Positions 9,581 through 57,780 of a stretch of 64,000 nt of DNA are shown here, piece by piece (positions within the stretch are counted from its first letter, which is position 1; the number at the start of each line of letters is the position of its first letter). Under the pieces are notes generated by a model. It searched no databases, had not been told where the DNA came from, and saw nothing but the letters and a program-made list of their open reading frames with translations. The stretch covers positions 1 through 64,000 of the forward strand of contig JAMDCQ010000012.1 in NCBI GenBank assembly GCA_023488905.1, in the 5' to 3' direction. A program made the translations under genes and the position numbers. Source of the DNA: Candidatus Bathyarchaeota archaeon (GTDB taxonomy: Archaea; Thermoproteota; Bathyarchaeia; Bathyarchaeales; Bathycorpusculaceae).

Positions 9581-9980
9581 ATTAGGCGCCAAATAGTGGT
9601 TCTATGCAGAAACCTATAGAGGGGAGGTCTGGTTTGGTTGCTTTCTAAGCAAAAGTTCCCGCTTTTAACAGTAGATCAAAATTTTGTTGCGCGCTCTTTA
9701 TGTGGGTGTGGTGGTTTACGGCACACCACACGACGGCAGTTGGGGGCGGCTGCGTTTTGGGTTTGCAACGGTTTTCTGCGTCGGTTTCGGTGTGGCATAT
9801 GGGATTTTCTCCACAAGAACAACATAGCTCTATGTTGAAACGGGCTGGGTGTGGATGTGGGGGCATGTATCTTTTGGTTTTTTCTTCCACAAGAACCAAC
9901 AACCCCAACCAAACCAACAAACAAACATATTTTTTGATCTACTGTTAAATAAGGGAGGGGGTCTTTGGCAAAGCAACAGA
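9581..9980 (+). repeat. Composite intergenic repeat, locus a (interrupted by MITE)
   Basis: The left block runs ATTAGGCGCCAAATAG, then TATGCAGAAACC, then CCTATAGAGGGGAGGTC. The right block AAATAAGGGAGGGGGTC ends in GCAAAGCAACAG. The two halves are separated by a 278 bp inverted-repeat element inserted in the CTTTAAATAAGG box. This locus fills most of the 532-base gap between the radical SAM and MFS genes. Related copies lie at 20221, 23866, 38110 and 43569. Confidence 0.75.
9668..9945. mobile_element. MITE-like element, copy 1 (278 bp)
   Basis: The ends are perfect inverted repeats, ACAGTAGATCAAAA and TTTTGATCTACTGT, flanked on both sides by TA (9666-9667 and 9946-9947). A TA target duplication is typical of IS630/Tc1-mariner transposition. 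The interior matches copy 2 at 53559 over most of its length, for instance GGTTTACGGCACACCACACG and CCACAAGAACCAACAACCCC. It encodes no transposase and is presumably moved in trans. Confidence 0.8.
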
Positions 9981-10083
9981 ACGAGTTACTTCGTTTATGA
10001 GCGGGTAAATGTGTAAGCTAAACCGTTTAGAATTAGTTTTTTTAATCTTATTTTAAATACATCCTATAACAAAAGAGGGAGCC

Positions 10084-11289
10084 ATGCAGGAGGTCAAATC
10101 AACCGTCAGCCCAGTCCATAGTAAGTTGCTACTTTTAGTTTTGGGCTTGTCTGCGCTTTCTGCCTGTTTAGTAACCGTTGCTTTTCAAGTATTAATGATC
10201 GATGTAGCCGCTAGCTTCCAAGTTCAAGTTGGCACGGCAAGCATGGCGGCCTCTGTCGGCTCGATTTCAGGCATAACCTTCGGGTTACTTTTAGCTGTGG
10301 TAAGCATGCGCTACAGCCATAAACTACTATTGTTAGGCGGCTTGGCGTGCACCATTCTAGGAGCGCTCGGCTATTATTTTGCACCGACTTTTCCATTACT
10401 TTTAGCCTCCAACATCGGTGTAGGCGCAGGCATAGCTATTGTATCTGCGATGGCTTACTCCATAATCGGCGACGTTTACCCACTGGAAAAAAGAGGAAAA
10501 GCGGTTGGAGTAATTGTCGCTTTCACGACTCTTGCATTTGTTATAGGTAGCCCCGCCACGGGTTTACTGGCATCGTATTTGGATTGGCGTACAGTCACGA
10601 TTGCCTTGACTTTACCCGTCGCGTTAGCAAGCCTAGTTTCAGCCGCTTTTGTGATTCCAAAAAGACAACAAACAAAAGCTTCAACAGAGAGGAAGCAGTT
10701 TTCTCCTGGATGCAAACAGGCATTCACCAGCGTTTCAGCAGTTGCTGCATTATCAGTTACTATATTCTTGTGTACTGAAGGCGCCATAGGTTACTATTCG
10801 GTTTCGTTCTTCCGGGATCAATTTGACCTCTCTGTTGGGTGGGGGTCATCGTTTATTTTGTTCGGTAGCCTTGCAGGAGCAGTGGGAGGTGCAATCGCAG
10901 GTCTGCTTGTTAACCGGATGGGTCGCAAAAATTTAGGCACAATTACATTCCTGCTTGCCAGTATACTTACTTTGATGTTCACGTTTATGCCCACAGTAGA
11001 GCTTTCGGGTTCAGTGGGGCTTTTACGCTTCTGGTTCGCCGCGATGGCGTCAACCGCTGGCGGCAGCTTAATCCTCGAACAGTTACCCAAATTCCGCAGC
11101 ACCATGATGTCATTAAATGCGGCGTTCATGAACATCGGGATTCTTGTGGCATCTGTATTTGGAGGGTTAATGCTTAACAGCTACGGTTATCAAGCAGTCG
11201 GGCTGGCGCTGGGCAGTTTAGGATTAGTAGGTGTAGTAATCTGGGTTACACTGGTAAAAGAGCCCTGCCCAACAACCACAAAAACTTAA
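10084..11289 (+). CDS. Major facilitator superfamily transporter
   Basis: A 401-residue protein with twelve predicted transmembrane segments in two halves. The halves are joined by a basic cytoplasmic loop around residue 195-215 (KRQQTKASTERK). The first half has the MFS signature region near residues 75-85 and the GDVYPLEKRGKAVG motif after segment 4, typical of drug/metabolite proton antiporters of the DHA1 group. The second half repeats it with NRMGRKNLG. GAGGGAGCC directly before the ATG is a strong SD. The substrate is not deducible. It stands alone, flanked by repeat loci a and b. Confidence 0.9.
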   Translation: MQEVKSTVSPVHSKLLLLVLGLSALSACLVTVAFQVLMIDVAASFQVQVGTASMAASVGSISGITFGLLLAVVSMRYSHKLLLLGGLACTILGALGYYFAPTFPLLLASNIGVGAGIAIVSAMAYSIIGDVYPLEKRGKAVGVIVAFTTLAFVIGSPATGLLASYLDWRTVTIALTLPVALASLVSAAFVIPKRQQTKASTERKQFSPGCKQAFTSVSAVAALSVTIFLCTEGAIGYYSVSFFRDQFDLSVGWGSSFILFGSLAGAVGGAIAGLLVNRMGRKNLGTITFLLASILTLMFTFMPTVELSGSVGLLRFWFAAMASTAGGSLILEQLPKFRSTMMSLNAAFMNIGILVASVFGGLMLNSYGYQAVGLALGSLGLVGVVIWVTLVKEPCPTTTKT

Positions 11290-11310
11290 CCGAACCGAAA
11301 AAACCGTTTT

Positions 11311-11356
11311 TGCCTTTAAATAAGGGGGTCTAGTCACCGCAGAGCCGCTGTTTGCA
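11311..11356 (+). repeat. Intergenic repeat box, locus b (short form)
   Basis: TGCCTTTAAATAAGGGGG is followed by TCTAGTCACC and GAGCCGCTGTTTGC. This matches the right ends of loci i and j. It lies between two convergent genes, so it is unlikely to be a promoter here. Confidence 0.65.
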
Positions 11357-11362
11357 AGCTTG

Positions 11363-13141
11363 TTATGTTGCAAAACGCCTCGGATCAGTGTCGATGTCCA
11401 CAATCGTGGGCTTATCCGATTTCAGCGCTTTCTCAACTGCAGCTTCCAATTCTGCAGGTTCGGTGACTTTTATGCCTAACCCGCCTGCATTGGTTGCGAA
11501 GTCGGCGAAGCTAAAATCGTGCAGCTCGGTTTGCCAACCCTCGTATCCCTCCACCTTCTGCTCCTGCATGATCATGCCCAAACGTTTGTTGTTAATCACA
11601 AATACCTTCACAGGCAAATTGTACTTCAACGCAGTCAGGAAGTCACCCAGCACCATCGTCAAACCGCCATCTCCCGTCACGCAGACGATTTGCCTCTCAG
11701 GACACGCCAAAGCAGCCGCCAACGCACCAGGCAACCCGAAACCCATCGTCGCCAAAGTGCCACTCATAACCATCTTCTGCGTCCGCTTCATGAAGAAGTT
11801 GCGTCCGAACCACCAGCAGTTCTCGCCAACATCAAGTGAAATCACCGCGTCATCTGCAACCTTCTCATTGAGCACTTTCATGATGTAGGGTGGGCGAATC
11901 GGTTTTGCTTTTGGGTCAGCTTCCGCTTGGAGTTGCTCAAGCCACGCCGCCTTGAGTTTGGCGGCTTCAGCTACATAGTCAGCCCTATTTTTCTCGGCTA
12001 CTTTCTCAGTTAACTTTGGAATCAAAACCGCGCTGTTACCAAGCAACGCGACCTCCGCAGGGTAACGCCTCGCAATCATCAAGGGGTTGATGTCGATTTG
12101 GACCATGCGTTTTTGGGGAATCTGGGACAAATCCGAAAACGACAAGCCTACCGCAATGAGTAAATCGGTTTTCTCCATGATTTGCGACGCCGCAGTTGAG
12201 CCTACACCGCCGTGGCCACCCATGTAGCGCGAATCCATCTCGTCTACGATGCCTTTGCCGCGGAAAGTAGCAATTATCGGTGCCCCAAGTTTGTCAGCGA
12301 GTTTAAGCAGTTTAGTTCCCTGTCCTCTTGCACCGAAACCGATCACGATAACTGGGCGATTGGCTTCATCGACAACTTTGGCTGCTTTCTCAATCACCCA
12401 TTCCTCCTGTCCATATGCCATGTTGGGCATTCTGCCTTCAAACGGTAAAATCTCCGTTTCATACGGCAACTTCTGCACATCATTAGGGATGCCAATGTGC
12501 GCGACACCTTGATCTAGTAGTGCATGCTTAATTGCCAACGTCACCAGTGAAGTTGTCTGATCCTCAGTCATCAACGTCTTGTTGTAAACGCTCAGCGGTT
12601 CAAAGAAAGCTTGCTGGTCGATTTCTTGTATGGCACCTTTACCGATCAGTTTACGGGGTACCAATCCCGTTAAAGCCAAAACAGGCGCGTGATCCAGTTG
12701 TGCATCGTAGAGTCCTGTGACGAGATTGGTTGCGCCTGGACCCGAAATCCCCAGAACTGCCGAAATGTGGCCCGTTAGTTTTCCATATGCGGAAGCCATA
12801 AACGCCGCTGTCTCTTCATGGCGAACTTGGATGTAGCGGACTTTGCCGTTGGTTTTGCGTATGGCATCTATCACACCCAAAGTTGAAGTGCCAGGTATAC
12901 CAAAAACGTATCTAACGCCCCAAGCCGCGATCTGGTTAATTAGCACGTCCGAAACGGTGTTTTCAGCCTTCTCTTCAGATGCAGCTTCCTTCCCCGTCTT
13001 CTCCTCGGTTAAGAGCACAAAAGCCGATTTTGGAGCGCCGCAAATGGGGCAAACCCACTCTTTAGGCAAATCCTCAAACTTGACTTTCTGTTTAACGTCA
13101 TCATAAACCCAGTTGCACACGGTACATCTATACTTAGCCAT
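11363..13141 (-). CDS. Rubredoxin-fused thiamine-diphosphate enzyme (acetolactate synthase/pyruvate oxidase-like)
   Basis: Residues 1-45 are a rubredoxin domain with CTVC (Cys6, Cys9) and CPIC (Cys31, Cys34). A charged linker leads to a full three-domain ThDP enzyme of the acetohydroxyacid synthase/pyruvate oxidase group. Its features are the catalytic glutamate in RHEETAAF (about residue 109), the FAD-domain-like central part, and the ThDP/Mg motif VTGDGG followed by NN about 30 residues later. The fusion suggests that electrons from a 2-oxoacid pass through the iron centre to an acceptor. The substrate could be pyruvate or another 2-oxoacid. ATG 13141 is preferred over TTG 13147 because GGAGG lies seven bases upstream. 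Confidence 0.9.
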
Positions 13142-13228
13142 AAACAAACCTCCAGAAACAACAAAAACTAAGACTAATCGAGAATATCAGTTTATTGGAA
13201 ACATAGACTTAACGGTTACTTGTTTGGA

Positions 13229-13552
13229 TTAGAGGTTGAGTGTTTTTGTTACCTTATTGTTTATTTCTTTCTTAAGTTTAGGACCAACATGCCCTAATTC
13301 TCCCACGATTAGCCTTTTGGATAGTGTTGCGATTTTTTCAATCTTTAGAAATGAATCTACCTTTAGTCCAGTTTGCTTGAATTCCGGGTGCTTTTCATCT
13401 ATCACAACATCATTAGAATTGGTTTTTGCTTTTCTCGATGAAATGAAGACTACAGTGACGTCTTTTTCGCTTTCATATAAAACAAGTGCAGGTCTCAGTT
13501 TAGTAGATGTTAAATCGGTAAATGGAAAAGTAATTAGAACTATCTTTACCTT
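13229..13552 (-). pseudogene. PemK/MazF-family toxin, lacks an in-frame start
   Basis: The minus-strand frame reads a complete PemK/MazF-like endoribonuclease: an N-terminal IVLITFPFTDL, then KLRPALVLYES, VVFISSRKA, TGLKVDSFLKIEKIATL and a C-terminal GELGHVG. The frame is open up to the stop codon of the antitoxin gene and has no ATG, GTG or TTG before the second third. Removing one A from TTGAAAGG at about 13553 would restore a start giving MKVKIVLITFPF and preserve the usual antitoxin-toxin junction. It is therefore a frameshifted toxin, a recoded gene or a base-call error. Family toxins cleave mRNA and are held by the upstream antitoxin. Confidence 0.7.
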
Positions 13553-13747
13553 TCAATTGCAGTTAACCTTTGTTTTAACGTCTTTAATCGAATAGATGTC
13601 AGGCTCCTCCGCCAGAAACTCCTTTAGCGCCTGCTCTTCAAGAGCCATAACTATCTCAGTTTCTCTCTCTTCCAACAAAGAGTCAAGTTTCTTGTTAACC
13701 TCTGATAACAAGAACTTGATTTCTTTGAGTTCAACTTCGATTGTCAT
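13553..13747 (-). CDS. Small charged antitoxin-like protein
   Basis: A 64-residue acidic, heptad-rich protein: residues 3-40 form a likely coiled coil (ELKEIKFLLSEVNKKLDSLL). It is followed by a short C-terminal tail, EEPDIYSIKDVKTK, of the type that binds MazF-like toxins. Its stop codon abuts the toxin reading frame. Size, charge and position directly before a PemK/MazF homologue identify it as the probable antitoxin, although I do not recognise a named antitoxin family. Its ATG overlaps the stop of a short upstream frame (ATGA). Confidence 0.65.
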   Translation of the reverse strand: MTIEVELKEIKFLLSEVNKKLDSLLEERETEIVMALEEQALKEFLAEEPDIYSIKDVKTKVNCN

Positions 13748-13869
13748 TGTTCCACATAGGCATATACCTTTTCAGTCCTATTAATAATTGTTCCAAAAAG
13801 CTTTGCAGAATCGAACAATTCATAAACTGCGTTAACCCAATCTATCTCCAATAGAAGGTTGCTTGTCAT
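13744..13869 (-). CDS. Possible 41-residue leader ORF upstream of the antitoxin
   Basis: ATG 13869 opens a 41-codon frame reading NLLLEIDWVNAVYELFDSAK. It ends in an ATGA overlap with the antitoxin start, as in translationally coupled genes. Its ATG shares the CATG with the divergent trxB start. The composition looks protein-like, but there is no SD. It could equally be the untranslated promoter region of the toxin-antitoxin operon. Confidence 0.25.
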   Translation of the reverse strand: MTSNLLLEIDWVNAVYELFDSAKLFGTIINRTEKVYAYVEQ

Positions 13870-14800
13870 GGATAATTGGGATGTCATCATCGTCGGCGCA
13901 GGTTCAGCGGGACTTTCCGCAGCCATTTACGCGGTTAGGAGCGGATTGAAAACTTTGGTTTTGGATGAGAAATTCGCTGGAGGAACCATCGCAGATGCCC
14001 CCACAATCGTCAATTACCCAGGTTTTGTCTCCATAAGCGGCGGCGAGTTGGCCCAGAAGATGGCTGACCACGCACGCGCGCTTGGCGCAAACATCCATGA
14101 CATCGAAGCCGTAACCACTTTAGACCTCAAAGGCGAAACCAAAACAGTAACAACCACAGGCGCATCCTACACAGCCAAAGCCATCATAATCTCCACTGGT
14201 TCGCATTACAAAGAAATCGGTGCCAAAGGCGAGAAAGAGTTCCGCGGTAGAGGCGTAAGCTACTGCGGCGTGTGTGATGGCCCATTTTTCAAGGGTAAAC
14301 GTGTGGTGGTTGTGGGTGGCGGAAACTCGGCATGTATTACCACGCTCTATATTTCAGGTTTAGCGTCCCAAGTTACGGTTATCCATCGGCGGCAGATGTT
14401 CCGTGCAGAAGAATCGCTTGTAAACGATCTTAAAGCAAAAACAAACGTCAACATCCTCTGGAATACGGAAGTCCAAGAAATCAAAGGCGACCGCCAAGTC
14501 CGCTCAGTCACGCTAATTGACAACTCAACTGGGCAAACCAGCGAGTTAGCTGTGGATGCGGTGTTTGTGCAGGTCGGCGAAGCACCCAACAGTCAACTGG
14601 CAAACGCGGCAGGCGTAGAAATCGACGAGCACGGCTACATCAAAATCGATATGCATCAACGCACCAACCTCGAAGGCGTGTTCGCTGCTGGAGACGTAAC
14701 CAACCACCCCGTCAAGCAGGTCGGCACAGCGGTTGGGCAGGGAATCACGGCTGCGCTTGAAGCTTACGCTTTCATAAGGCGTCCATACTACAAAAAATAG
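13868..14800 (+). CDS. trxB: Thioredoxin-disulfide reductase
   Basis: A 311-residue flavoprotein with the FAD motif VGAGSAGLSAAIYA at the N-terminus. The redox-active dithiol is CGVCDGPFF near residue 135, the NAD(P)-binding motif is VVVGGGNSA near 155, and the C-terminal FAD motif is GVFAAGDVTNHPVKQ. It transfers electrons from NAD(P)H to thioredoxin-like proteins. CGVC replaces the more usual CATC or CAVC. After GGGNSA the sequence CITTLY lacks the usual glutamate pair. ATG 13868 is preferred over TTG 13859 by family length. No thioredoxin gene is adjacent. Confidence 0.93.
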   Translation: MDNWDVIIVGAGSAGLSAAIYAVRSGLKTLVLDEKFAGGTIADAPTIVNYPGFVSISGGELAQKMADHARALGANIHDIEAVTTLDLKGETKTVTTTGASYTAKAIIISTGSHYKEIGAKGEKEFRGRGVSYCGVCDGPFFKGKRVVVVGGGNSACITTLYISGLASQVTVIHRRQMFRAEESLVNDLKAKTNVNILWNTEVQEIKGDRQVRSVTLIDNSTGQTSELAVDAVFVQVGEAPNSQLANAAGVEIDEHGYIKIDMHQRTNLEGVFAAGDVTNHPVKQVGTAVGQGITAALEAYAFIRRPYYKK

Positions 14801-15004
14801 TGGTACACCACTTTTGTAAAGCCCGTCTTCTTCTATTTTTGACTCAAAACCAGTTAAACAATACGTTTGTTAACCCAGAGTTATATAGGGGATTTTCACA
14901 ATTTTCAGAGGAAGGATTATATCGTTCTAAAAGCCTTCTTGTGCTTTCGATGCTTCAGCCAACACGCTAAGGCATTAATCAGCAGCGTGCAATGAGGTTT
15001 ACTA

Positions 15005-16225
15005 ATGAGTGAGAAATGTCTCGCTGTAGTTGAGGTTAATCAGGACTTATGCAGCAGATGTTACGTTTGCCAATCCATCTGCCCCTATGATGCAATCAAA
15101 CGTGATGACGAAGGCAAAGTAAACATTAACATCGAAGAATGCCAAGTTTGCGGCATTTGCTACAGTGCTTGCCCAGCTTCCGCCATAAAAATGCAGTATT
15201 ACACTTACGACAACTTAACCGAATACCTAAAGCAAGCTCAGGCGAAGTCGCCTAAAACTGAGACATTGGTTTTGATGTGCCGCGGCAACTCGCCCAACAC
15301 AGGCGAAGTAAAAGACATCCTCAAAGAACAAAACCTAAAAATCGACAATTACATCGCACTCAGATTGCCCTGCGCGGGTAGAGTTCCAACGGACTTTGTC
15401 TTTGAAGCCCTAAACTTGGGCATAAAAAACATCGTCTCAATCCAATGCGAGGATCCCTTCTGCCGCTACAAAGAAGGCACCAAAATCAACACCCGCAGAT
15501 TAACCCTCGCAAAAAACGTTCTCAAACAACTCGGCTACGACGACAACGCCGTTCGAGTCATCAAATTCTCGCGCAAAGCAGTCTATGACGTGTTGGAATG
15601 TGTGGGTTGCGACAAATGCATCTTCATCTGCCCCTACAAAGCCTTAGAGTTCGAGCCTTTCGCCACTCCAAAAGTCATCGAAGAAAAATGTGTTGGCTGC
15701 GGCGCTTGCCAACTGGTTTGCCCACACCACGCCATACAAGTCAAAGGTTTCGAATTCGAAAATGTGCTTAAACGCTACGGCGAATCCGCGCAGAAAGTGG
15801 CGGCGCAGGGCAAAGGACCAGCAGTTCTCGCGTTTATTTGCCAGTGGTCAGAGTTCTCCGCCTTAGATAGCCCCAACAAGGCGTTTGAAGGCAAAAACGT
15901 GTTGGCTCTTGAGGTTCCATGCTTCAAATCCCTCGACCCAGTTCATGTAGTCAACGCCTTGAGCTGCGGTTTCGAAGGCGTAATCGCGGTTGTTTGCTCT
16001 TCAAAAGACTGCAAGCTACAGGAAGGGCGAGACACAGCAGAACGCAACTTAGACGTAATCCTTGATGTGCTCAAAAAGAAGAACCTGCTTGAACGGTTCC
16101 AACTCTACGAGGAGTCACCAAGATGCCAAGGAGATTTCGAGCAGAAACTCAACGAATTCTACCAAAAAATCGCCAATTTACCTAAAGAACCAAAAGCGGA
16201 GGCTAAAGCCGAATGTACAAGATAG
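15005..16225 (+). CDS. Double ferredoxin/FlpD (MvhD-like) fusion protein
   Basis: The 406 residues form two repeats of one module. The first has two [4Fe-4S] motifs (Cys16-CSRCYVCQSICP and Cys46-CQVCGICYSACP) followed by an FlpD/MvhD-like domain (about 86-190). The second has CVGCDKCIFICP and CVGCGACQLVCP (about 200-245), followed by another FlpD-like domain (about 276-385). FlpD/MvhD subunits carry a [2Fe-2S] centre and pass electrons between hydrogenase or formate dehydrogenase and heterodisulfide reductase. The gene overlaps the downstream NfnA-like gene by 13 bases, so the product should belong to the same complex. GAGG lies before the ATG. The 200-base region upstream carries a TATA-like TTATATAGG around 14880. 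Confidence 0.9.
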   Translation: MSEKCLAVVEVNQDLCSRCYVCQSICPYDAIKRDDEGKVNINIEECQVCGICYSACPASAIKMQYYTYDNLTEYLKQAQAKSPKTETLVLMCRGNSPNTGEVKDILKEQNLKIDNYIALRLPCAGRVPTDFVFEALNLGIKNIVSIQCEDPFCRYKEGTKINTRRLTLAKNVLKQLGYDDNAVRVIKFSRKAVYDVLECVGCDKCIFICPYKALEFEPFATPKVIEEKCVGCGACQLVCPHHAIQVKGFEFENVLKRYGESAQKVAAQGKGPAVLAFICQWSEFSALDSPNKAFEGKNVLALEVPCFKSLDPVHVVNALSCGFEGVIAVVCSSKDCKLQEGRDTAERNLDVILDVLKKKNLLERFQLYEESPRCQGDFEQKLNEFYQKIANLPKEPKAEAKAECTR

Positions 16226-18451: not shown

Positions 18452-18474
18452 GCCGCTAACTGCTGCTTTTTCTT

Positions 18475-18520
18475 TCTATAGCCCCCCTTATTTAAAGGCG
18501 CATACACTTCCGTATTCGTC
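18475..18520 (-). repeat. Intergenic repeat box, locus c (short form)
   Basis: CTATAGCCCCCCTTATTTAA continues into AAGGCGCATACACTTCCGTA. On the minus strand it reads as the CTTTAAATAAGGGG box preceded by a small ATAC/GTAT hairpin, like loci i and j. It lies between convergent genes. Confidence 0.6.
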
Positions 18521-19640: not shown

Positions 19641-19685
19641 AGTCGCTGTTGCTCTCTGGGGCCTCCCCTCCCTTATATAAAGAAC
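19641..19685 (-). repeat. Intergenic repeat box, locus d (right-end fragment)
   Basis: CGCTGTTGCTCTCTGGGGCC is followed by TCCCCTCCCTTATATAAAG. On the minus strand this equals the right end of the long form (box, GGGAGGGG, then AGAGCAACAG). The TTATATAAAG also lies about 35-45 bases before the GNAT remnant start and may have been its TATA box. Confidence 0.55.
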
Positions 19686-19715
19686 AAAACAGCTTAACTA
19701 ACCAAGTGACCTCGA

Positions 19716-20213
19716 ATGATAATACGTGAAACCACCGACGCCGACTTAAACGACATACTACTTGTTGAGCGGGCAGCTTTCAACAAGGATGCGGAAGAAC
19801 TTGACTCGCGACCTCTTAGTTGACCCGTCAGCTAAGCCTCTGCTGTCGTTGCTTGCTTTTATTGATGGGCAACCAGTAGGGCATATCCTTTTCAGCAAAG
19901 CCACCATCGTCGGCGCCCCCAACATCAAAGCCTCATTCCTCGCGCCCCTCGCGGTTATCCCCAAATTCCAAAAGCAAGAAGTCGGAGGTAGCCTCATCAA
20001 AAAAGGCCTAGAACTCCAAACCCAATAGCACACTACCCAAAATTCGGCTTCACATCTGCCTCAAAATTGGGTTTCGAACCCACATACCCCATCCCAGCAG
20101 AAGTCGCGGACGCATGGATGGTGCAGGCGCTTCGCACCGGAATAATTGGCAACGCGTCAGGCAGAGTGCTCGGCTGCGATACTATGAACCGTCAAGAAGC
20201 GTGGCGAGAATAA
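19716..20213 (+). pseudogene. GNAT-family N-acetyltransferase remnant
   Basis: Translation starts at ATG 19716 (MIIRETTDADLNDILLVERAAF). It shifts frame near 19801 to LLAFIDGQPVGHILFSKATI and the acetyl-CoA site region LAPLAVIPKFQKQEVGGSLI. A stop at 20026 follows, and the frame resumes as HYPKFGFTSASKLGF through GRVLGCDTMNRQEAW. The order matches archaeal GNAT acetyltransferases. The first lesion is a single extra base; at the second about a dozen residues are missing before YPKFGF. With at least two lesions the gene is not functional. Confidence 0.8.
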
Positions 20214-20220
20214 AGGGTTT

Positions 20221-20320
20221 GTTGCTTTTAGTAATACCCTATCCCCCTATTTGAAGGCGAAAATCAGTTGACCTATCCCCTATAGGTTTCTGCATAGAAA
20301 TCCTAATAGACGCCAAATAT
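20221..20320 (-). repeat. Composite intergenic repeat, locus e (diverged long form)
   Basis: On the minus strand it reads the palindrome block (ATATTTGGCGTCTATTAGG), TATGCAGAAACC, CCTATAGGGGATAGGTC, a degenerate box CTTCAAATAGGGGG and a final AAAAGCAACAA. The block order matches loci f, g and h. It lies immediately after the GNAT remnant and before the flavodoxin gene. Confidence 0.65.
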
Positions 20321-23865: not shown

Positions 23866-23967
23866 TTTTGCTCTGCCACTACCTCCCTCCCCTTATTTAA
23901 AGGCGAAATCCTGTGGACCTACCCCTATAGGTTCCCTGCATACATTGGATATTAGGATCCAAATATG
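23866..23967 (-). repeat. Composite intergenic repeat, locus f (long form)
   Basis: On the minus strand it reads ATATTTGGATCCTAATAT, TATGCAGGGAACC, CCTATAGGGGTAGGTCC, then CGCCTTTAAATAAGGGG, AGGGAGG and a final GGCAGAGCAAAAG. It is one of the clearest copies, about 100 bases long. It lies between the GT39-like gene and tRNA-Val. Confidence 0.72.
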
Positions 23968-37941: not shown

Positions 37942-38109
37942 CGCTATGGTACTGTGTGGAGCTGTTTATATAAGCTCAGGCGGCAACCACACTCAGCCGA
38001 TAGTTGGTGTTTGAAAATCTCCAATATTATGCTTGAGGCTAATACAGATTCACGGAAAACGCACTGTTTGCCACGAAATCCGTCTGCTTGGGTGCGTTTT
38101 TCGCAGACA

Positions 38110-38243
38110 TATTAGGATCCAAATATCAGATCAATGCAGAAACCTATAGAGGGAGGTCTACTTGGCGGCGGGTGGGTGCGTTTGGCGCGCCTCTGGCGTT
38201 TTGCTCTTTTTATAAGGGGAGGGAGCTCTGTGAGAGCAACAGC
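38110..38243 (+). repeat. Composite intergenic repeat, locus g (long form)
   Basis: ATATTAGGATCCAAATAT is followed by AATGCAGAAACC, CCTATAGAGGGAGGTCTAC, about 45 variable G/C-rich bases, TTTTTATAAGGGGAGGG and GTGAGAGCAACAG. With its flanks it fills the 304-base gap between the geranylgeranyl reductase start and the small cysteine-rich gene. Confidence 0.72.
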
Positions 38244-38245
38244 AG

Positions 38246-43489: not shown

Positions 43490-43568
43490 GGCGCTTCCCT
43501 CTCAACCCTAAGTACCCTAAACACCTAATAAATTATTTCTATAACAACATGACAAGACGCAACAGCGA

Positions 43569-43713
43569 TTTCCTTCTATAGGCCCCTTATTTAAAGGAAT
43601 GTTGGATGGCGTTTGTTGCTCTGCCGAGAGCCCCTTCCCCTTATAAAAAGCAGCGATAGATGTAACCCTCCCCTCTATAGGTTCTGCATAGAACCGCTAT
43701 TTGGATCCTAATA
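43569..43713 (-). repeat. Composite intergenic repeat, locus h (two boxes)
   Basis: On the minus strand it reads TATTAGGATCCAAATAG, TATGCAGAACC, CCTATAGAGGGGAGGG, TTTTTATAAGGGGAAGGGG, GGCAGAGCAACAAAC and then a second box CCTTTAAATAAGGGGCC. It occupies most of the 331-base divergent gap between the coiled-coil gene and rtcA. Confidence 0.72.
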
Positions 43714-43820
43714 GGTTGGTATCGTAATAGTCGAAAGCTGCCAGAATTGGATTACACGAGACCACTGTTATAGGGTCAACGATTCTATTTTTTAAATTGA
43801 CTACCTATAGTGAGAAGTGT

Positions 43821-49881: not shown

Positions 49882-49887
49882 AACGGT

Positions 49888-51020: not shown

Positions 51021-51033
51021 GATTCGGGAAGAA

Positions 51034-51285
51034 ATGAAAGTCGGCCCAAAAGGGCAAGTTGTCATTCCACGAGCTATACGCAAGGCGCTCAAAATCACGC
51101 CGGGCTCCAAGGTGCAAATCACCCTAGAAGATAACAAGGCGATTTTGGAGAAGCCAGCTTTCGACGCAGTCGCTGTTTTTAAGAGGGTCGCCCAAAGCGG
51201 CAAATCGGTATCCTACATAGACCCCCATGCAGCATACGAGGAAGAACTCAAAGAGAGAACCCGCCGTGCTCTATCTGGACGCTAA
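51034..51285 (+). CDS. vapB: AbrB/SpoVT-type antitoxin (VapB)
   Basis: An 83-residue protein. The swapped-hairpin AbrB domain occupies the N-terminus (MKVGPKGQVVIPRAIRKALKITPGSKVQITLEDNKAILEK). A helical C-terminal tail (YEEELKERTRRALSGR) binds and inhibits the toxin. GGGAAG precedes ATG 51034, which is the start expected for the family; the frame runs open to 50998. It overlaps vapC by 20 bases. It should bind the nested palindrome just upstream. Confidence 0.9.
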   Translation: MKVGPKGQVVIPRAIRKALKITPGSKVQITLEDNKAILEKPAFDAVAVFKRVAQSGKSVSYIDPHAAYEEELKERTRRALSGR

Positions 51286-51664
51286 CATCTTCATCTTCGC
51301 CGCTTTAAACACCGAAAATGAAGGCCCCAAAGCGGTGGCTCTGCTGGATCAAATCCAGTCGGGTGAAGAAAAGGCAGTTACATCGGCTTTAACTTTTGAT
51401 GAGGTTTTCTGGGAGGTCAAGAGGAACCGTGGGATGGAGAAAGCACTGGAAACTGCAGAGGCACTGCTGAATTTTCCTAACTTGGAAATCATTGCTGCCA
51501 ATAAAGAGTTGGCACTGTCGGCTTTACGACTAATTAGAGAAGTGCATCTTGCACCGAGGGACGCTCTTCATGCTTCAACCGCAATAGCGGAAAAAGTAGA
51601 TTACGTTGTCACTTCAGACGCGCACTTTGGAAAAATAAAAGAACTAAAAATAAAGGGCTTGTGA
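51266..51664 (+). CDS. vapC: PIN-domain toxin (VapC)
   Basis: A 132-residue PIN-domain ribonuclease starting at GTG 51266 (VLYLDANIFIFAAL). Metal-binding acids appear in order: Asp in YLDAN, Glu in TFDEVFWEV, Asp in APRDALHAS and Asp in VTSDAHFG. VapC toxins cleave tRNA or rRNA and are neutralised by the cognate VapB. The overlap with vapB ensures that antitoxin is translated first. All catalytic acids are intact, so the system looks active. Confidence 0.92.
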   Translation: MLYLDANIFIFAALNTENEGPKAVALLDQIQSGEEKAVTSALTFDEVFWEVKRNRGMEKALETAEALLNFPNLEIIAANKELALSALRLIREVHLAPRDALHASTAIAEKVDYVVTSDAHFGKIKELKIKGL

Positions 51665-51675
51665 GCGCCAACTTT

Positions 51676-53385
51676 CTAATTATTCACTGGGAAGACAAGG
51701 GAAAATGCTGTTCCTTGTTCTGGTGTGCTTTCAACCTGTATACTTCCGCCGTGGGCTTCCATGATGCGTTTGCAAATTGGTAACCCAAAGCCCATGCCTT
51801 TTGCTTTAGTGGTAAACAGCGGTTTCCAGAGTTTGCCAATCGTCTCCTGAGACATACCGTCACCCGTATCTTTGAAGCTAATTTTTAATAGGTTCTCTGT
51901 TTTTGTGCTGTTGATTGTCAGTGAACCCCCTTTGGGCATTGCTTCAAAAGCATTTTTTATTATGTTAACGAAAACTCTGCTGATGTGGACTTTATCGACT
52001 CTAAGTGTCGGTGTATCTTCGGTGAGGTCTACAACTTTGACTCCGTAGGGAACCCGAATAAGTGACATCGCATTCTGGGCAAGTTCTTTCGGTGTAGCCT
52101 CTTCCATTTTGAGGGTTATTTCACGCGAGTAATCTAAGAGGTCCTCTACAATTTTATTCGAGTACTGTATGCCTGCCTGTATGTTCTCAAGCATCTCCTT
52201 AGATGTTGGGTCCATGTTTGGTGAGGCTTTTTTCTTGAGGTAATAAGTTGCCATCTGCATGCTGTTGAGCGGGTTGCGAAGGTCATGCCCAACCATACCT
52301 GCGAGTTCGCCGATAGCTGCGAAACGTTCATTCTTCAAAATTTTCTGCTCGTCTTGTTTTAGTCTGGTCAAATCGTGGATTATTAGTGTGATACCGACGT
52401 TTTTGCCCTTATATTTAATCAAGGATGCTGAGATCGAAACCGGCGTCTCAACGTTGTTTTTTGTTAGTATGGTTGTTTCGTAGTTTTTTATTTCGTGCTT
52501 TTGGTTTATTAGGTCTATTAGCTGCTGGTTGTCTTTACCTGATAGTATGTGGTTAACCGTTTTCCCCGTTAATTCATTTTCTTTGTGACCTGTCAGGTTA
52601 GTAAAGGCTTGATTTGTTCGGAGGATTTTCCCATTTGAGTCAATTAGAATAAAGGAGTCGGGCATAGTTGCTATGATGTTTTCTGCAGCGATAGCTGGGT
52701 TGAGGTTGAAAAGGTTGTATCTCCAAATTGCATAAAAAATAAAGAGACAGAGGACAGCGTTAGCGCCGACGCCGTAGTATGGGATATACAAGCCGAATAA
52801 GAAGTAGGCTGCCTTTGAAATTACATTTACAACGATTGGATAAGCCACGGCTATTGTGATTAGTTTGACTTGTTGTTTTTTGTTCGACTCATTAACTTTG
52901 AAATAATGTCTCAAACATATGGCAACCAAACTAACGGATATTATTGCAGACCAAAGAACGGTAGCAAAATCCAAGGGAGAATCAGAACCGATGAAAACGT
53001 AACCATATGCAGTGTTTACTGGTGGCCCAGAAATTAAGTCAGTCGTTAAGTCTGTTAACGAAAACAGAAAAGCGGGCGTATAGAGCAATATGTATGTACG
53101 TTTATCGTTAGCAAAGCGGTTTTGAGTAAAAACCAATACAAACTTCAGTAATAACACTAAAAAGAAAGGCCACAAAAAGCCTGCTTTGTTCCAGAAATAG
53201 GCTGTTTGGACGCTTTCCGCTTGGATAACCATGAACGTGGTGAAAGCGCTGTAGGCTCCGACGGTTATTGCAAGTATAAAAGCGCGGTTAAGGTTGCTTT
53301 TTCGGTTAGTAAAGTAGACGAAGACCGCTAGCAATGCGCAGATTAGGGTTGCTGCGATAGCAAAAAAGGCGTATATGCTAATCAA
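51676..53385 (-). CDS. Membrane PAS-domain sensor histidine kinase
   Basis: A 569-residue kinase. The N-terminal seven-helix membrane region (residues 1-225) is of the 7TM histidine-kinase type. A PAS domain follows (about 235-345: IIATMPDSFILIDSNGKILRTNQAFTNLTGHKENEL). The phosphoacceptor helix has GHDLRNPLNSM. The ATPase domain has the N box FVNIIKNAFEAMPKGG, G1 FKDTGDGMS and G2 GMGFGLPICKRI. It senses a membrane or cytosolic signal and autophosphorylates. No response regulator is encoded nearby, so it is an orphan. It is convergent with vapC. Confidence 0.93.
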   Translation of the reverse strand: MISIYAFFAIAATLICALLAVFVYFTNRKSNLNRAFILAITVGAYSAFTTFMVIQAESVQTAYFWNKAGFLWPFFLVLLLKFVLVFTQNRFANDKRTYILLYTPAFLFSLTDLTTDLISGPPVNTAYGYVFIGSDSPLDFATVLWSAIISVSLVAICLRHYFKVNESNKKQQVKLITIAVAYPIVVNVISKAAYFLFGLYIPYYGVGANAVLCLFIFYAIWRYNLFNLNPAIAAENIIATMPDSFILIDSNGKILRTNQAFTNLTGHKENELTGKTVNHILSGKDNQQLIDLINQKHEIKNYETTILTKNNVETPVSISASLIKYKGKNVGITLIIHDLTRLKQDEQKILKNERFAAIGELAGMVGHDLRNPLNSMQMATYYLKKKASPNMDPTSKEMLENIQAGIQYSNKIVEDLLDYSREITLKMEEATPKELAQNAMSLIRVPYGVKVVDLTEDTPTLRVDKVHISRVFVNIIKNAFEAMPKGGSLTINSTKTENLLKISFKDTGDGMSQETIGKLWKPLFTTKAKGMGFGLPICKRIMEAHGGSIQVESTPEQGTAFSLVFPVNN

Positions 53386-53546
53386 TTTGCGTTTTAATCC
53401 CCTTAGCCATCGCTAACGTAACCTCTGTAGCATTCCATTTGATGATTAAGAGGAAGGTTGGGATTTAAGCCGTATGAACTTTCAATAATGATTAGGTGCA
53501 AGTTTTTATCACGAAAACAAGCAGCCCGACACAATGCCATCGAGTT

Positions 53547-53945
53547 GCCCTTTATTTATCAGTAGATCAAAATTTTGTTGCCAACTCTTTGTGGGTGTTT
53601 TGGTTTACGGCACACCACACGACGGCAACTGTGGGCGGCTGCGTTTTGGGGTTGCAACGGTTTGGGGCGTCTGTTTCGGTGTGGCATATGAGATTTCCGC
53701 CACACGCCCAACATAGAAGCATGTTGAAACCGCCACCATGCGAATGTGAAAGCATGTATCGACCTTTTTTTCTTCCACAAGAACCAACAACCCCAACCAA
53801 ACCAACAAACAAACATATTTTTTGATCTACTGATAAGGGAGGAGAGGTGGCCGCTGAGAGGTCGCGTGGTTTCCTCTGTTGCGGATACGGAATCGTATGC
53901 GCCTTTAAATAAGGGGGGTCTAGTCAGCCAAGAGCAGTCGTTTCT
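53547..53945 (+). repeat. Composite intergenic repeat, locus i (interrupted by MITE)
   Basis: The left remnant GCCCTTTATT is separated by the 275 bp MITE from ATAAGGGAGGAGAGG. The rest continues with CGTGGTTTCCTC, a GATACG...CGTAT hairpin, GCGCCTTTAAATAAGGGG and TCTAGTCAGCCAAGAGCAG. About 115 bases of it recur inverted at locus j (57664). With short flanks it fills the 649-base divergent gap between the histidine kinase and INO1. Apart from the repeat I see only an AT-rich promoter stretch before 54035. Confidence 0.75.
53559..53833. mobile_element. MITE-like element, copy 2 (275 bp)
   Basis: The ends are TCAGTAGATCAAAA and TTTTGATCTACTGA, perfect inverted repeats flanked by TA on both sides (53557-53558 and 53834-53835). 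The interior matches copy 1 at 9668, with scattered substitutions and small indels. It sits at the same position of the CTTTAAATAAGGG box as copy 1. No transposase frame is present. Confidence 0.8.
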
Positions 53946-54034
53946 TAACTGTTGACGTTGTTGGTTGGGAAAAAGTTATAGCGCACGCAAACATTAAGCC
54001 ATACCAAATTAACTCATTGGATGTATAACCGTTC

Positions 54035-55117
54035 ATGCCAGAAATTCGTGTAGCACTCGTCGGCGTTGGCAACAGCGCATCTGCCCTCGTTCAAGGAACC
54101 CAATACTATAAAGACGCGAAAGAATCCGAATCTGTCCCAGGCTTGATGCACGTCAACTTCGGCGGCTACCACATCCGCGACATCGTCTTCGTCGCAGCTT
54201 TTGAAGTTAACAAGGAGAAAATCGGCAAAGACCTCTCCGAGGCAATTTGGGTGAAGCCGAACTGCTGCGAGAAATTCTCAGACGTCCCCAACCTCGGCGT
54301 CAAAGTTTCGCCAGCGCCAATCCTCGACGGCGTCGCACCCCACATGCGCGAAACCTTCAACGTCTACGACGGCAGCGCAACCAAAGAATCCGTAGTCCAA
54401 ACCCTCAAAGACACAAAAGCAGAAATCCTCGTAAACTACCTCCCTGTTGGTAGCCATGACGCAGTCCGATTCTACGCTCAATGCGCCATAGACGCAGGAT
54501 GCGCCTTCGTGAACTGCATGCCAGAATTCATCGGCTCCGACGCGTCAGGTGAATGGCCCAAAAAATTCGAAGCAGCAGGCCTGCCAGTTTTAGGCGATGA
54601 CATCAAGAGCCAAGTCGGCGCAACCATACTCCACCGCAACCTAGTACGGTTATGTCTCGATCGCGGAGTCATCGTGGATGAAACTTATCAGCTTAACCTC
54701 GGCGGCGACACCGACTTCCAAAACATGACCGTTGAAGGCCGCCTCAAATCTAAACGCATCAGCAAAACCGAAGCAGTCACCAGCCTCGTACCATACAACT
54801 TACCCACACGCATTGGCCCCAGCGACTTCGTCCAGTTCTTGGGCAACAAAAAAATCTGCTACATCAGCCTGAAAGGACGCAAATTTGGCGACCGCCCCAT
54901 AAACATCAGCGTAAAACTCGAAGTTGAAGACTCTCCCAACAGCGCAGGCGTCGTAATCGACCTCATACGCGCAGCAAAAATCGCGCTGGACCGCAAAATC
55001 TCTGGTGCACTGCTGAGTATGCCCTCATACGCATTCAAACACCCGCCAGTCCAAGTTCCCGACAGCCAAGCCCGCCAGTGGACGGAAGACTGGATAGCTG
55101 CCAAACGCGAAAGATAA
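54035..55117 (+). CDS. ino1: Inositol-3-phosphate synthase, archaeal type
   Basis: A 360-residue enzyme: NAD-binding IRVALVGVGNSASALVQG at the start, LVNYLPVGSHDAVRFYAQ, FVNCMPEFIGSD, LPVLGDDIKSQVGATILHR (conserved active-site lysine region), YQLNLGGDTDFQNM and KISLKG-like CYISLKGRKFG. It turns glucose-6-phosphate into inositol-3-phosphate for archaetidylinositol or compatible solutes. It is shorter than eukaryotic enzymes, as usual in archaea. It stands alone behind repeat locus i. Confidence 0.94.
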   Translation: MPEIRVALVGVGNSASALVQGTQYYKDAKESESVPGLMHVNFGGYHIRDIVFVAAFEVNKEKIGKDLSEAIWVKPNCCEKFSDVPNLGVKVSPAPILDGVAPHMRETFNVYDGSATKESVVQTLKDTKAEILVNYLPVGSHDAVRFYAQCAIDAGCAFVNCMPEFIGSDASGEWPKKFEAAGLPVLGDDIKSQVGATILHRNLVRLCLDRGVIVDETYQLNLGGDTDFQNMTVEGRLKSKRISKTEAVTSLVPYNLPTRIGPSDFVQFLGNKKICYISLKGRKFGDRPINISVKLEVEDSPNSAGVVIDLIRAAKIALDRKISGALLSMPSYAFKHPPVQVPDSQARQWTEDWIAAKRER

Positions 55118-55144
55118 AAAAACCTTTTGCCCAAAGAATGGGCT

Positions 55145-55438
55145 CTATTCTTCTAATTCCTTCTGTATAGCGTCAACTTTTTTTGCTAAGTCGCTAACTG
55201 CGGTTTTTATTTCTGCAAGTTCGCTGTTCATTTGAAGTTTAGCTTTCGTTTGAGGACTTTCCTGTCGCATGCCTTCCAACCCAAACGTGACGGCGAAAGT
55301 GATGATGAATGCCATAAAAACAAGCAGACCCGCAACGATGTTCGAAGTCAGCGTTATGCCGCCAACATAGAGGTACATGGCGATGATTATGGCAACTGCG
55401 AACCAAGTGCTTGCAACGACTGCAGCTCTACTATCCAA
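55145..55438 (-). CDS. Two-helix membrane protein with coiled-coil tail
   Basis: About 97 residues from TTG 55438, which is preceded by GGAGGTGG at seven bases. Two transmembrane helices (AVVASTWFAVAIIIAMYLYV and NIVAGLLVFMAFIITFAVTF) are followed by a charged coiled coil (NSELAEIKTAVSDLAKKVDAIQKELE). It overlaps the end of the ArsR-type gene by eight bases, so the two are coupled. No family is recognised; the regulator may control it. Confidence 0.75.
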   Translation of the reverse strand: MDSRAAVVASTWFAVAIIIAMYLYVGGITLTSNIVAGLLVFMAFIITFAVTFGLEGMRQESPQTKAKLQMNSELAEIKTAVSDLAKKVDAIQKELEE

Positions 55439-55742
55439 GTTTTTCCACCTCCTTTCTGAGACTCTCTGGAGAGATGCGTAGATCAAATGGTTGTAGTGTG
55501 TAGTAACGGAGCGCTTTTGCTTCGTTTTGGGCGGTGACTATGCGACTTGTGACGATTCCAGCTTTTTCGAGTTTTTTCAGGTGGATTTTGGCGAGAGCGC
55601 GGCTGATGCCGACGGTGTTGGCGATTTCGTTTAGGTATTTGTCTTGTTTTGTGAGGGTGGTGATTATTTTTAGACGTATGGGGTGGCCTAGCGCGTCGAG
55701 TTTTTTTGCGAGTTGGTTGATTTCTTCCACACATATCACCAT
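55431..55742 (-). CDS. ArsR-like winged-helix regulator
   Basis: A 103-residue single-domain regulator: LAKKLDALGHPIRLKIITTL is the ArsR-type first helix pair, and DKYLNEIANTVGISRALAKIHLKKLEKAGIV is the recognition helix and wing. It has only one cysteine, so a metal site of the classical type is unlikely. ATG 55742 is used; GTG 55730 is an alternative. It is coupled to the two-helix membrane protein and probably controls its own operon through the palindrome upstream. Confidence 0.88.
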   Translation of the reverse strand: MVICVEEINQLAKKLDALGHPIRLKIITTLTKQDKYLNEIANTVGISRALAKIHLKKLEKAGIVTSRIVTAQNEAKALRYYTLQPFDLRISPESLRKEVEKLG

Positions 55743-55751
55743 TATTAATTA

Positions 55752-55763
55752 ATTACATGTAAT
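55752..55763. promoter_or_regulatory. Probable operator of the ArsR-like gene
   Basis: ATTACATGTAAT is a perfect 12-base palindrome ten bases upstream of the ArsR-like start. A related half site, ATTACATATAAAT, lies just beyond and overlaps the likely TATA element. The placement suggests autorepression. Confidence 0.55.
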
Positions 55764-55886
55764 CAAAATATTACATATAAATTTACCGCTTACCCCATCA
55801 ACCAACTAGACACTTGCACAGCCAACCATTGTTAAACCTTTTATGTCTGAGGCGAAATTGTTACACATCAAGGAAGGTCACACAGC

Positions 55887-56306
55887 ATGGTTAAAGTTGA
55901 ACAGTACGAAGTGCCCGAAGGCCTCTACTACACCACAGACTTCGCCTGGGTCAAAGTTGAAGGCGACAAAGTCCGCGTCGGCATAACCGACTACGCCCAA
56001 AAATCGCTCCGAGAAATCGTCTACGCCGAACTTCCCAGCGTCGGCACCGAAGTAAAGCAGAAAGAGCCATTTGGAACACTCGAATCCGTCAAAGCAGTAT
56101 CTGACCTAGTCGCAGCCATCAGCGGAACAATCGAGGAAGTTAACGAAGAAGTCCAATCCAAGCCCGAAACTCTAAACGAAGATCCATACGGCAAAGGCTG
56201 GTTACTCATCGTCAAACCAAGCAACTTGCAGGCCGACCTCGCCCACCTCCTCGACTTCGAAAAAGCAGTCGAGTGGCATAAAGCTCAAACAGCGGGGAAA
56301 TGCTAA
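55887..56306 (+). CDS. gcvH: Glycine cleavage system H protein / lipoyl carrier
   Basis: A 139-residue H-protein: YYTTDFAWVKVEGDKVRVGITDYAQKSLREIVYAELPSVG, with the lipoylated lysine in GTLESVKAVSDLVAA and NEDPYGKGWLLIV near the end. The lipoyl arm shuttles aminomethyl groups or electrons. GcvP, GcvT and lipoate ligase are absent from the window. The gene is followed after ten bases by a flavoprotein of the CoA-disulfide reductase group, which may reoxidise its lipoyl group. AAGGTCAC lies before the ATG. Confidence 0.93.
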   Translation: MVKVEQYEVPEGLYYTTDFAWVKVEGDKVRVGITDYAQKSLREIVYAELPSVGTEVKQKEPFGTLESVKAVSDLVAAISGTIEEVNEEVQSKPETLNEDPYGKGWLLIVKPSNLQADLAHLLDFEKAVEWHKAQTAGKC

Positions 56307-56316
56307 GGCGAAACAG

Positions 56317-57663
56317 ATGGCGCGACGCATAGTAATCATCGGCGCAAACGCGTCAGGCGTAGACGCAGCGTCCGCGGCACGCAAAAAAGACCGCACCGCA
56401 GAAATCACGCTGGTCACTCAGGAAAAAACCGCGGGGTACTCGCGTTGTGGGTTGCCGTTTGTCATTGGCGGTCACATTGCAGAGTTCAAAGATTTGGTTG
56501 TTTATCCGCCTGCGTTTTTTCAGATGCAAAAACTGAACCTGTGCCTAGAAACTAAAGCCACTGCAATTAACACCAAAGATAAAACCGTCACGGTCCAAAC
56601 CAAAGACGGCGCAACCGAAGTCCTCCCATACGACTCGTTGGTAATTGCGACGGGTGCGGATTCATTTATGCCTCCGATTAAGGGCAGAGAGAAACAGGGC
56701 ATCCTCAGCCTGCGGGGCATAGAAGATGGTGAACGCATCGATGCCGCAGTTAAGGCAGGTGCTAAATCCGCGGTTATCATGGGTGCAGGCTTAATTGGAT
56801 TGGAGTTGGGTGTGGGTTTAATGGAGCGTGGCCTCAAAGTCACCATCGTGGAGATGTTGCCTCAGATTTTGCCTCAACTTCTCGATGCCGATATGGCGAA
56901 GCTTGTACAGCAGCATCTTGAAGAGAAAAGCATGCAGATTCTGCTAAACAAAAGCGTCGAAGAGTTCCTCGGAGACGACAAAGTTACCGCCATAAAAGCA
57001 GGCGGCGAAGTCATCGAAGCGGACGTGTTCATCAGCGCGTTTGGCGTGCGCGCCTCAACTAAACTTGCCACGGATGCAGGTATCCCGCTTGGAGAAACCC
57101 GCGCGATTAAAACTAACAGTAGAATGGAAACCGAAGTCAAAGACGTCTACGCGGTCGGCGACTGCGCAGAAGCCCCAAACATCATCACTCACAAACCCGT
57201 TTGTCCACAGTTGGGCACGGTTGCGGTGCGGATGGGAAAAGTGGGCGGCGCCAACGCGGCAGGCGATTACTCGCTTTTCGGAGGCGTTTTAGCTTCAGCG
57301 GTCACAAGGCTCTTTGAAATTGAAGCAGGTAATACAGGTTTAACTGAAACCGCGGCACAGCGCAACCGCATCGAAGTCGTCACAGGCGCAATCAGTAGCA
57401 AAACACGTGCCGACTACTATCCGGGTGCAACTCCAATTAAAGTCAAACTTGTCGTTGAAAAAGAATCCCAACGTATCATCGGCGCGCAGATTGTGGGTGG
57501 AGAAGAAGTTACTCAACGCATAAACTGCATAAGCTTTGCCATCCAAAAAGGCATGACCATACGCGAATTGGCAAAAGCCGACACAGCCTACGCACCACCG
57601 TTGAACGAGACATGGGAACCCATGGTTTTAGCAGCTGAAATGGTGCTCATGAAGTTTCGGTAA
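56317..57663 (+). CDS. NAD(P)H oxidase / CoA-disulfide reductase-like flavoprotein
   Basis: A 448-residue enzyme of the pyridine-nucleotide disulfide oxidoreductase class with a single redox cysteine in GYSRCGLPFVIGG (Cys44). The FAD motif is IVIIGANASGVDAASAAR, the NAD(P) motif VIMGAGLIGLELGVGLMERG, the second FAD motif VYAVGDCAEA, and the C-terminal dimer domain ends YAPPLNETWEPMVLAAEM. Relatives reduce CoA disulfides, polysulfide or oxygen. Being paired with gcvH suggests an electron-acceptor or lipoyl-linked role. It is followed by repeat locus j. Confidence 0.92.
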   Translation: MARRIVIIGANASGVDAASAARKKDRTAEITLVTQEKTAGYSRCGLPFVIGGHIAEFKDLVVYPPAFFQMQKLNLCLETKATAINTKDKTVTVQTKDGATEVLPYDSLVIATGADSFMPPIKGREKQGILSLRGIEDGERIDAAVKAGAKSAVIMGAGLIGLELGVGLMERGLKVTIVEMLPQILPQLLDADMAKLVQQHLEEKSMQILLNKSVEEFLGDDKVTAIKAGGEVIEADVFISAFGVRASTKLATDAGIPLGETRAIKTNSRMETEVKDVYAVGDCAEAPNIITHKPVCPQLGTVAVRMGKVGGANAAGDYSLFGGVLASAVTRLFEIEAGNTGLTETAAQRNRIEVVTGAISSKTRADYYPGATPIKVKLVVEKESQRIIGAQIVGGEEVTQRINCISFAIQKGMTIRELAKADTAYAPPLNETWEPMVLAAEMVLMKFR

Positions 57664-57780
57664 ACAGCTGCTCTTGGGTGACTAGACCCCCTTATTTAAA
57701 GCAGCATACGAAAACGTATCCGCACAAGAAGAAACCACGCCACGTCTCACCGTGTACCTCCCCTCCCTTATTTAAAGGCA
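57664..57780 (-). repeat. Composite intergenic repeat, locus j (inverted partner of i)
   Basis: On the minus strand it reads GCCTTTAAATAAGGGAGGGG, GTGGCGTGGTTTCTTC, a GATACG-TTTT-CGTAT hairpin, GCTTTAAATAAGGGGG, TCTAGTCACCC and AAGAGCAGCTGTTT. It matches locus i base for base over most of its length in the opposite orientation, without a MITE. It gives the form of the repeat before insertion. Confidence 0.75.

Follow-up and report, generated by a model that had tools for sequence, protein, structure and literature searches.

Box-joined modular repeats in intergenic DNA of a Bathyarchaeota genome and their coincidence with breakpoints of gene order

The gene order of archaea can be scrambled between close relatives, the cause being rarely visible. 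The window considered here, i.e., the whole analysed stretch of 64,000 nucleotides (positions 1-64000 of contig 23, JAMDCQ010000012.1) from the genome of a Candidatus Bathyarchaeota archaeon (GCA_023488905.1, hereafter G000; 1.79 Mb in 23 contigs, 91% complete; lineage Archaea, Thermoproteati by taxonomy look-up), carries in its intergenic gaps ten copies, a to j, of a repeat composed of units that meet at a common box. The presence of the repeat at ten loci, claimed by a first-pass annotation of the same DNA, was borne out by sequence inspection, far above chance, and the family is real. It is also apparently new to the literature, as that annotation had supposed: no description of it was found in the literature searched, which included excerpts of PMC10848311 and was judged mostly from result lists. 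Missed at that stage were the rearrangement breakpoints at the copies, the role of the box as a target of an ISH3-like insertion sequence (IS), and the apparent exchange of modules at the box.

The ten copies and their building units

The junction motif common to the units is the box CTTTAWATAAGGGG with its variants. The box CTTTAAATAAGGGG, at no more than one mismatch, has 95 matches in G000 and its reversed control 1, and the left module (TATTAGGATCCAAATA ... GCAGAAACCTATAGAGGG, with the palindrome and GCAGAAACC) has 44 matches at E <= 1e-3. Two module profiles, whose members were chosen by near-consensus patterns, were built from 21 two-box elements of G000, copies i and j included (profile A1), and from 22 palindrome elements, all from other species (profile A2). 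In the window they gave 4 and 5 matches, at copies b, c, i and j and at copies a, e, f, g and h, respectively, with copy d matched by neither, and 0 matches in ten dinucleotide shuffles of the window. Chance similarity is rejected by this shuffled-window search together with the counts of the box and its control.

Copy a begins on the plus strand with its left modules (palindrome, GCAGAAACC and CTATAGAGGGGAGGTC; 9579-9629, A2 match at 9580-9650, E 1.6e-11), its box is occupied by an IS derivative (9669-9944) with the ends CAGTAGATCAAAA / TTTTGATCTACTG between TTAA at 9665-9668 and at 9945-9948, and the remaining box and tail (TTAAATAAGGGAGGGGG...GCAAAGCAACAG), recognised by inspection, follow at 9945-9978 (plus). 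Copy b (11309-11355, plus; A1 E 2.8e-6), a box plus the GGTCTAGTCA end, and copy c (18455-18518, minus; A1 E 1.2e-8), in which a hairpin arm accompanies the box and end, each occupy a gap between convergent called genes, as had been stated from the outset. Copy d (19641-19690, minus) is a box plus GAGAGCAACAG tail, recognised from the sequence, while copy e (20221-20320, minus; A2 E 7.8e-10) comprises palindrome, GCAGAAACC, G-rich block, degenerate box and tail. Between these two, at 19716-20215, lies a ATGATAATACGTGAAACC start which we take to be acetyltransferase-like; no full-length frame is listed there, and the gene may therefore be broken. Copy f (23866-23965, minus; A2 E 1.7e-5), with palindrome, GCAGAAACC, box and tail, stands upstream of tRNA-Val. 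Copy g (38050-38245, plus; A2 match) consists of module A (TCACGGAAAACGC...GTGCGTTT, the right end degenerate) with palindrome and GCAGAAACC, followed by box and tail, and copy h (43565-43716, minus; A2 E 5.7e-8) of palindrome, GCAGAAACC, two boxes, tail and end unit. Copies i and j are two-box forms. In copy i (53828-53947, plus; A1 E 3e-31) a box, G-rich block, GAGAGGTCGCGTGG, hairpin, box and GTCTAGTCA end are found, the first box being interrupted by a second derivative of the ISH3-like IS (53560-53832, by inspection), and copy j (57659-57777, minus; A1 E 4.1e-33) is an intact two-box module, both E values being those of sequences that sit in the profile's own alignment.

With the copies printed in one orientation, five recurring kinds of units were distinguished by eye: module A, which runs from TCACGGAAAACGC to GTGCGTTTAACGCA and encloses the palindrome and GCAGAAACC; the B end (box, AGGGGGTCTC, GAGAGCAACA); module C (box, AGGGGAGGT, GAGACGTCGCGTGG, the hairpin GGATACG..CGTATGC and a second box); the V end (box, GTCTAGTCA, AGAGCAGCTG); and the D end (box, CTATAGAAAAAAATCGCAGCTG). 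The units join at boxes, and the composites therefore differ in which units meet there. The view of the first-pass annotation that there is one element with long and short forms has to be corrected, the repeat being a mosaic of box-joined modules. Among the copies described as a box end only, d is indeed a box plus tail, while c has the hairpin arm as well; and copy a, thought to be long by carrying all modules, owes its length, like copy i, mainly to the IS derivative of about 270 nt inside the box. Within a cluster the modules mostly run the same way, and the palindrome, whose centre is variable, is found in both orientations relative to GCAGAAACC. An inverted exception to the common direction was observed in L051 (G000:C9, about 26.0-26.1 kb), where a long palindrome is formed by two opposed box units with a CCCCTTATATAAGGG in common between them.

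Module A is present in 18 complete copies of 138-140 nt in the fetched G000 stretches, with a pairwise identity of 0.67-0.96 (median 0.76) and, by eye, short and imperfect inverted ends. The test of terminal repeats and target duplication concerns module A only; matches between its flanks did not clearly exceed those of shuffled pairs, 54 of 500 of which scored as high.

A second repeat, of about 270 nt and unrelated to the first, is nested in copy a and in copy i; its inverted ends CAGTAGATCAAAA, at no more than one mismatch, occur 76 times in G000 versus 1 for the control. An autonomous IS of 1113 nt with the same ends was found in L245 (G000:C22:38000-40800), inserted in a box with a TTAT duplication, and shorter derivatives occur elsewhere in G000. 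Its transposase frame of 349 codons (869-1915, minus) matches DDE_Tnp_1 and scores 173.8 bits (E 4.2e-51) against ISH3 (NF033541), below the curated family cut-off of 225, and the IS is therefore named ISH3-like only. Among seven copies of the IS or its derivatives, picked by hand from the list of ends, six are inserted in a box, whose sequence is restored when the flanks are joined (by eye), so that the box is a preferred target of this IS; the target duplication is 4 bp in three copies, 2 bp in three and absent in one. Within the window the IS ends are seen in a and i alone. The nested elements of these two copies share their ends with the autonomous IS of the same genome and are its miniature inverted-repeat transposable elements (MITEs).

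Occurrence in the genome and among relatives

The own-genome sample comprised 96 stretches fetched around motif matches, including 60 of the 62 listed stretches with further boxes, and the motif rule yielded 100 places in it (none in copy d and in 6 of the 96 stretches), with genes called by a simple codon-score caller. Two of the 100 places overlap a called gene by more than half, namely L009, an element beside a gene end, and L041, a lone box with one mismatch; the claim that copies never lie inside a gene has to be softened for these two. Leaving them aside, together with 30 places that lack a called gene on one or both sides, 68 remain, of which 25 lie in tandem, 23 in divergent and 20 in convergent gaps; among the window gaps of 60 bp or more, 4 of 35 are convergent. 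In the same 68 places the box points towards a gene start in 35 and towards a gene end in 33.

Exact boxes were found in 11 of 60 related genomes besides G000, and a scan of the GTDB genomes for TGCAGAAACCTATAGNGGG gave at least 110 stretches, all the listed ones titled Candidatus Bathyarchaeota. As the first-pass annotation had asked, profiles were searched in relatives too, with matches in G011, the nearest relative by the identity of one protein (83%, next genome 65%), and in G013. In 232 kb of G011 there are 8 matches of A1 and none of A2, and in 67 kb of G013 one weak match of A1 and six distinct places of A2; stretches of about 20 kb each from G004, G006, G012 and G015 gave no match of either profile, with 6 exact boxes elsewhere in G006. 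These differences indicate that the modules come and go separately between relatives. Module A was met in G011 at one place (C5:242.7-242.9 kb) among the matches listed, which, with its 18 copies and their median identity in G000, points to lineage-specific copying, mostly not very recent.

At the level of single sites, the gaps of G013 orthologous to copies h and f hold no element (by eye, and without a profile match there), so that the empty orthologous sites foreseen for a mobile repeat do exist in some cases. At the site of copy c, the composite of G013 is longer and agrees with that of G000 in end and orientation, and no element was seen in G011. The idea of a composite family with ordered modules behaving like a small mobile repeat fits this patchy occurrence among close relatives. 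At the site of copy i, G013 (C8:110250-110700, L263) was seen to have a small AGAGGGGTAGGTC...TTGGCG unit that is bordered on its two sides by inverted ATAATTTTGC/GCAAAATTAT. Other species follow the same plan with other fillings, e.g., TATTTGGATCCTAATAG-N-TGCAGAAACCTATAGGGGGTAGGTC and then a TATTGGCG...ATGTTGAAAA unit; in some copies of other Bathyarchaeota (L100, L115, L167, L190 and L195-L197) the palindrome is directly preceded by one more module, with GTCAAGATTTCTTGAC or a like sequence.

A virus or plasmid origin of the family was considered and rejected, as viral contigs had no match of the L2 motif or the two-box motif, copy j had no plasmid match and copy g no phage match. A single box-plus-CTATAG match, lying just before an ATPase-like frame (L278:8595-8615), was met in one viral contig in which a terminase-like frame was recognised by eye; by our own estimate this match may be chance for so short a pattern.

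Breakpoints of gene order

When the window was compared in pieces with the whole of G011 and G013 by BLAST (the best 40 of the 110-167 candidates per genome being scored), the blocks of G011 were found to end at the copies. In the window, 9 of 10 copy-bearing gaps and 7 of 9 breakpoint intervals coincide, and in three added stretches of 20 kb, which were picked by copy density before being searched, 9 of 10 gaps and 9 of 10 intervals do so. For all four stretches together (not counting the lone box L041 and a copy that lacks one flank, at the end of L276), 18 of 20 copy-bearing gaps stand at breakpoints and 16 of 19 intervals hold a copy, while random placement expects 7.6-8.9 gaps and 6.7-8.0 intervals and reached the observed level in 0 of 20,000 permutations. 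Permutation within classes of gap orientation and length expects 12.1 copies (0 of 20,000 as high) and 11.0 intervals (p 0.0006), and the added stretches alone, with equal weights, are expected to give 4.3 of 10 (p 0.0002).

The order in G011 runs through the window segment 11346-18453, 67 bases, the segment 38251-43548, 29 bases, and the segment 57690-57890, with copies c, g, h and j bounding the blocks. Three adjacencies of G011 join the flanks of two copies each: a-left with g-left (inverted), c-left with g-right, and h-left with j-right. The last of these junctions holds a hybrid, in which the h flank, end unit and box are followed by the hairpin, GACGTCTC block, box and flank of copy j; this element matches A1 at E 2.4e-20 and changes from one copy to the other at the box. 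At the site of copy d, the outer flank and box are kept in G011, and module C, i.e., a two-box element, then replaces the short tail. In G013 the genes flanking copy h stand in the order of G000, with 26 bases and no element between the aligned blocks, and the order of G011 at this site is therefore probably derived. A two-box element of G011 (C3:144170-144253, L265) adjoins the end of a block which in G000 likewise ends at a copy, in L275, so that both genomes carry an element at this breakpoint. In total, element traces were seen at 5 of 12 G011 block ends, of which three are clear, the hybrid included, and two weak (E about 0.05).

The exact matches of window copies to other fetched G000 copies do not exceed 39 nt (67 nt for the IS derivative), and the two element-free joins of G011 share only 13-14 bases with the other G011 sequence compared. 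Since the exact matches between copies are so short, simple assembler confusion is unlikely to have produced the junctions. A gene for a major facilitator superfamily (MFS) transporter (10084-11289) is enclosed by copy a and copy b, which have one and the same orientation; it is unmatched in the flanking G011 blocks and may be a passenger block for that reason.

Weighing of explanations and likeness to known systems

The explanation preferred here, to which a probability of about 0.62 is given, is that these are non-coding modular intergenic repeats of Bathyarchaeota whose copy-to-copy exchange at the box rearranges gene order and makes mosaics; the observations suggest that breakage and rejoining of the chromosome take place at the repeats. 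Through ectopic recombination the copies would exchange sequence at their common box and swap their flanks, by which gene blocks could be moved, inverted or deleted, and the same exchange would generate the mosaic elements. The ISH3-like IS would land preferentially in the box, its small derivatives adding further modules, and the family, kept out of genes by selection, would make the order of the chromosome fluid. The family is probably selfish or neutral. The box may even be the crossover site of a dedicated recombination system, site-specific or transposase-assisted, with chromosomes built of movable blocks between joints, but this extension is doubtful.

Several points weigh against the exchange of copies at the box. 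The breakpoints were read from BLAST tables, not blind to the copies, and belong to one pair of draft metagenome genomes, whose assembly state remains a risk to them. Some intervals are wide and span several gaps: those of a/b and c/d, with copies in both gaps, that of i, with a copy in one of two gaps, and L275 13366-19008. With length weights the added stretches alone are expected to give 6.1 of 10 (p 0.005), a weaker excess, and copy e and the third copy of L277 stand away from breakpoints. No element is held by 7 of the 12 tested G011 block ends or by the a-left/g-left and c-left/g-right joins, and no pair of reciprocal products was found in the comparison of G000 with G011. As the copy is mostly seen on the G000 side alone, later insertion into new junctions is a possible course.

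The latter course is part of a rival account, according to which tolerant gaps outside operons gather both repeats and breakpoints, the repeats entering junctions after their formation. It agrees with the seven empty block ends, with the frequency of convergent gaps among the element gaps (20/68 vs 4/35 in the window) and with the only moderate surprise of the length-weighted added stretches (9 of 10); however, the excess survives permutation within orientation and length classes, the h/j hybrid and the d site indicate exchange within elements, and three G011 adjacencies join the flanks of two copy-bearing sites, which makes this account possible but rather unlikely. Alternatively, the transposase of the ISH3-like IS might itself cause the rearrangements, intramolecular transposition between boxes leaving deletions and inversions that end at boxes. 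The six of seven examined insertions in a box (by eye), the 4-bp duplication in three of the seven, and the autonomous copy with its 349-codon, ISH3-related frame (173.8 bits, below the cut-off) would suit such an agent, which is nevertheless unlikely, given IS ends in only two of the ten window copies and none seen by eye in the junction of the h/j hybrid.

Spread by a REP-associated tyrosine (Y1) transposase (RAYT), as for repetitive extragenic palindromes (REP) and bacterial interspersed mosaic elements (BIME), would account for palindromic units beside GTAG-like G-rich motifs and for the mosaic build, which are features of BIME according to PMC2817692. The Y1_Tnp domain (PF01797) is matched in 10 of 33 genomes searched, among them the box carriers G009 (one match) and G016 (two), but 8 of these 10 have no exact box, G000, G011 and G013 have no match, and the modules mostly run in one direction; such spread is very improbable. 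Least credible of all is a transcribed structured RNA or a promoter cassette, both raised in the first-pass annotation. The box resembles what we take to be the consensus of the archaeal TATA box, and one hairpin is conserved in the two-box module. However, the box direction is unbiased, which is at odds with a role as promoter or leader and speaks against the box as a promoter as a rule. By consensus folding, A1 has a single hairpin of 7 pairs and A2 has 3 pairs, with no pair changed on both sides in either alignment, the power of this test being limited by the choice of members by near-consensus patterns. The best candidate hairpin, in which some single sequences look compensated, was no better than shuffles over 22 sequences, and Rfam at the gathering score matched only tRNA-Val in the window, so that the structured RNA reading was not upheld.

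A recognisable and countable motif marks the breakpoints, at 18 of 20 motif gaps in four stretches of one genome, and the cause of archaeal chromosome shuffling becomes testable from existing metagenome reads. The box, besides being the preferred site of the ISH3-like IS, supplies a marker for the annotation of intergenic DNA in Bathyarchaeota.

In their build the repeats are similar to the BOX and BIME repeats of bacteria, yet they did not show the mechanistic features tested for. The BOX elements of Streptococcus pneumoniae, as described in PMC3049150, end in inverted repeats, are flanked by target duplications and have an RNA fold predicted for them, and are, like the present family, modular, variable in length, intergenic, present in about a hundred copies, nearly lineage-bound and probably parasitic; the present repeats differ from them by the sequences and the domain of life, with no target duplication found for module A and no covarying fold. 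With REP/BIME and their RAYT (PMC2817692) they share the mosaic, palindromic, high-copy and extragenic character, but not the alternating orientation, nor a Y1 match in G000, G011 and G013, although the carriers G009 and G016 have it. The archaeal MITEs, e.g., SM1-SM4 of Sulfolobus as cited in PMC10969869, find their counterpart in the nested CAGTAGATCAAAA elements of copies a and i, unlike the main repeats, which showed no target duplication and for which a parent IS was neither searched for nor met. In the integrase-driven inversions of Thermococcales, according to PMC5495485, the breakpoints lie in pairs of tRNA genes and a plasmid integrase is the agent, whereas the breakpoints described here lie in non-coding mosaic repeats and the search for a recombinase covered PF01797 and the ISH3-like IS only; common to both are archaeal synteny breakpoints that fall at dispersed related sequences.

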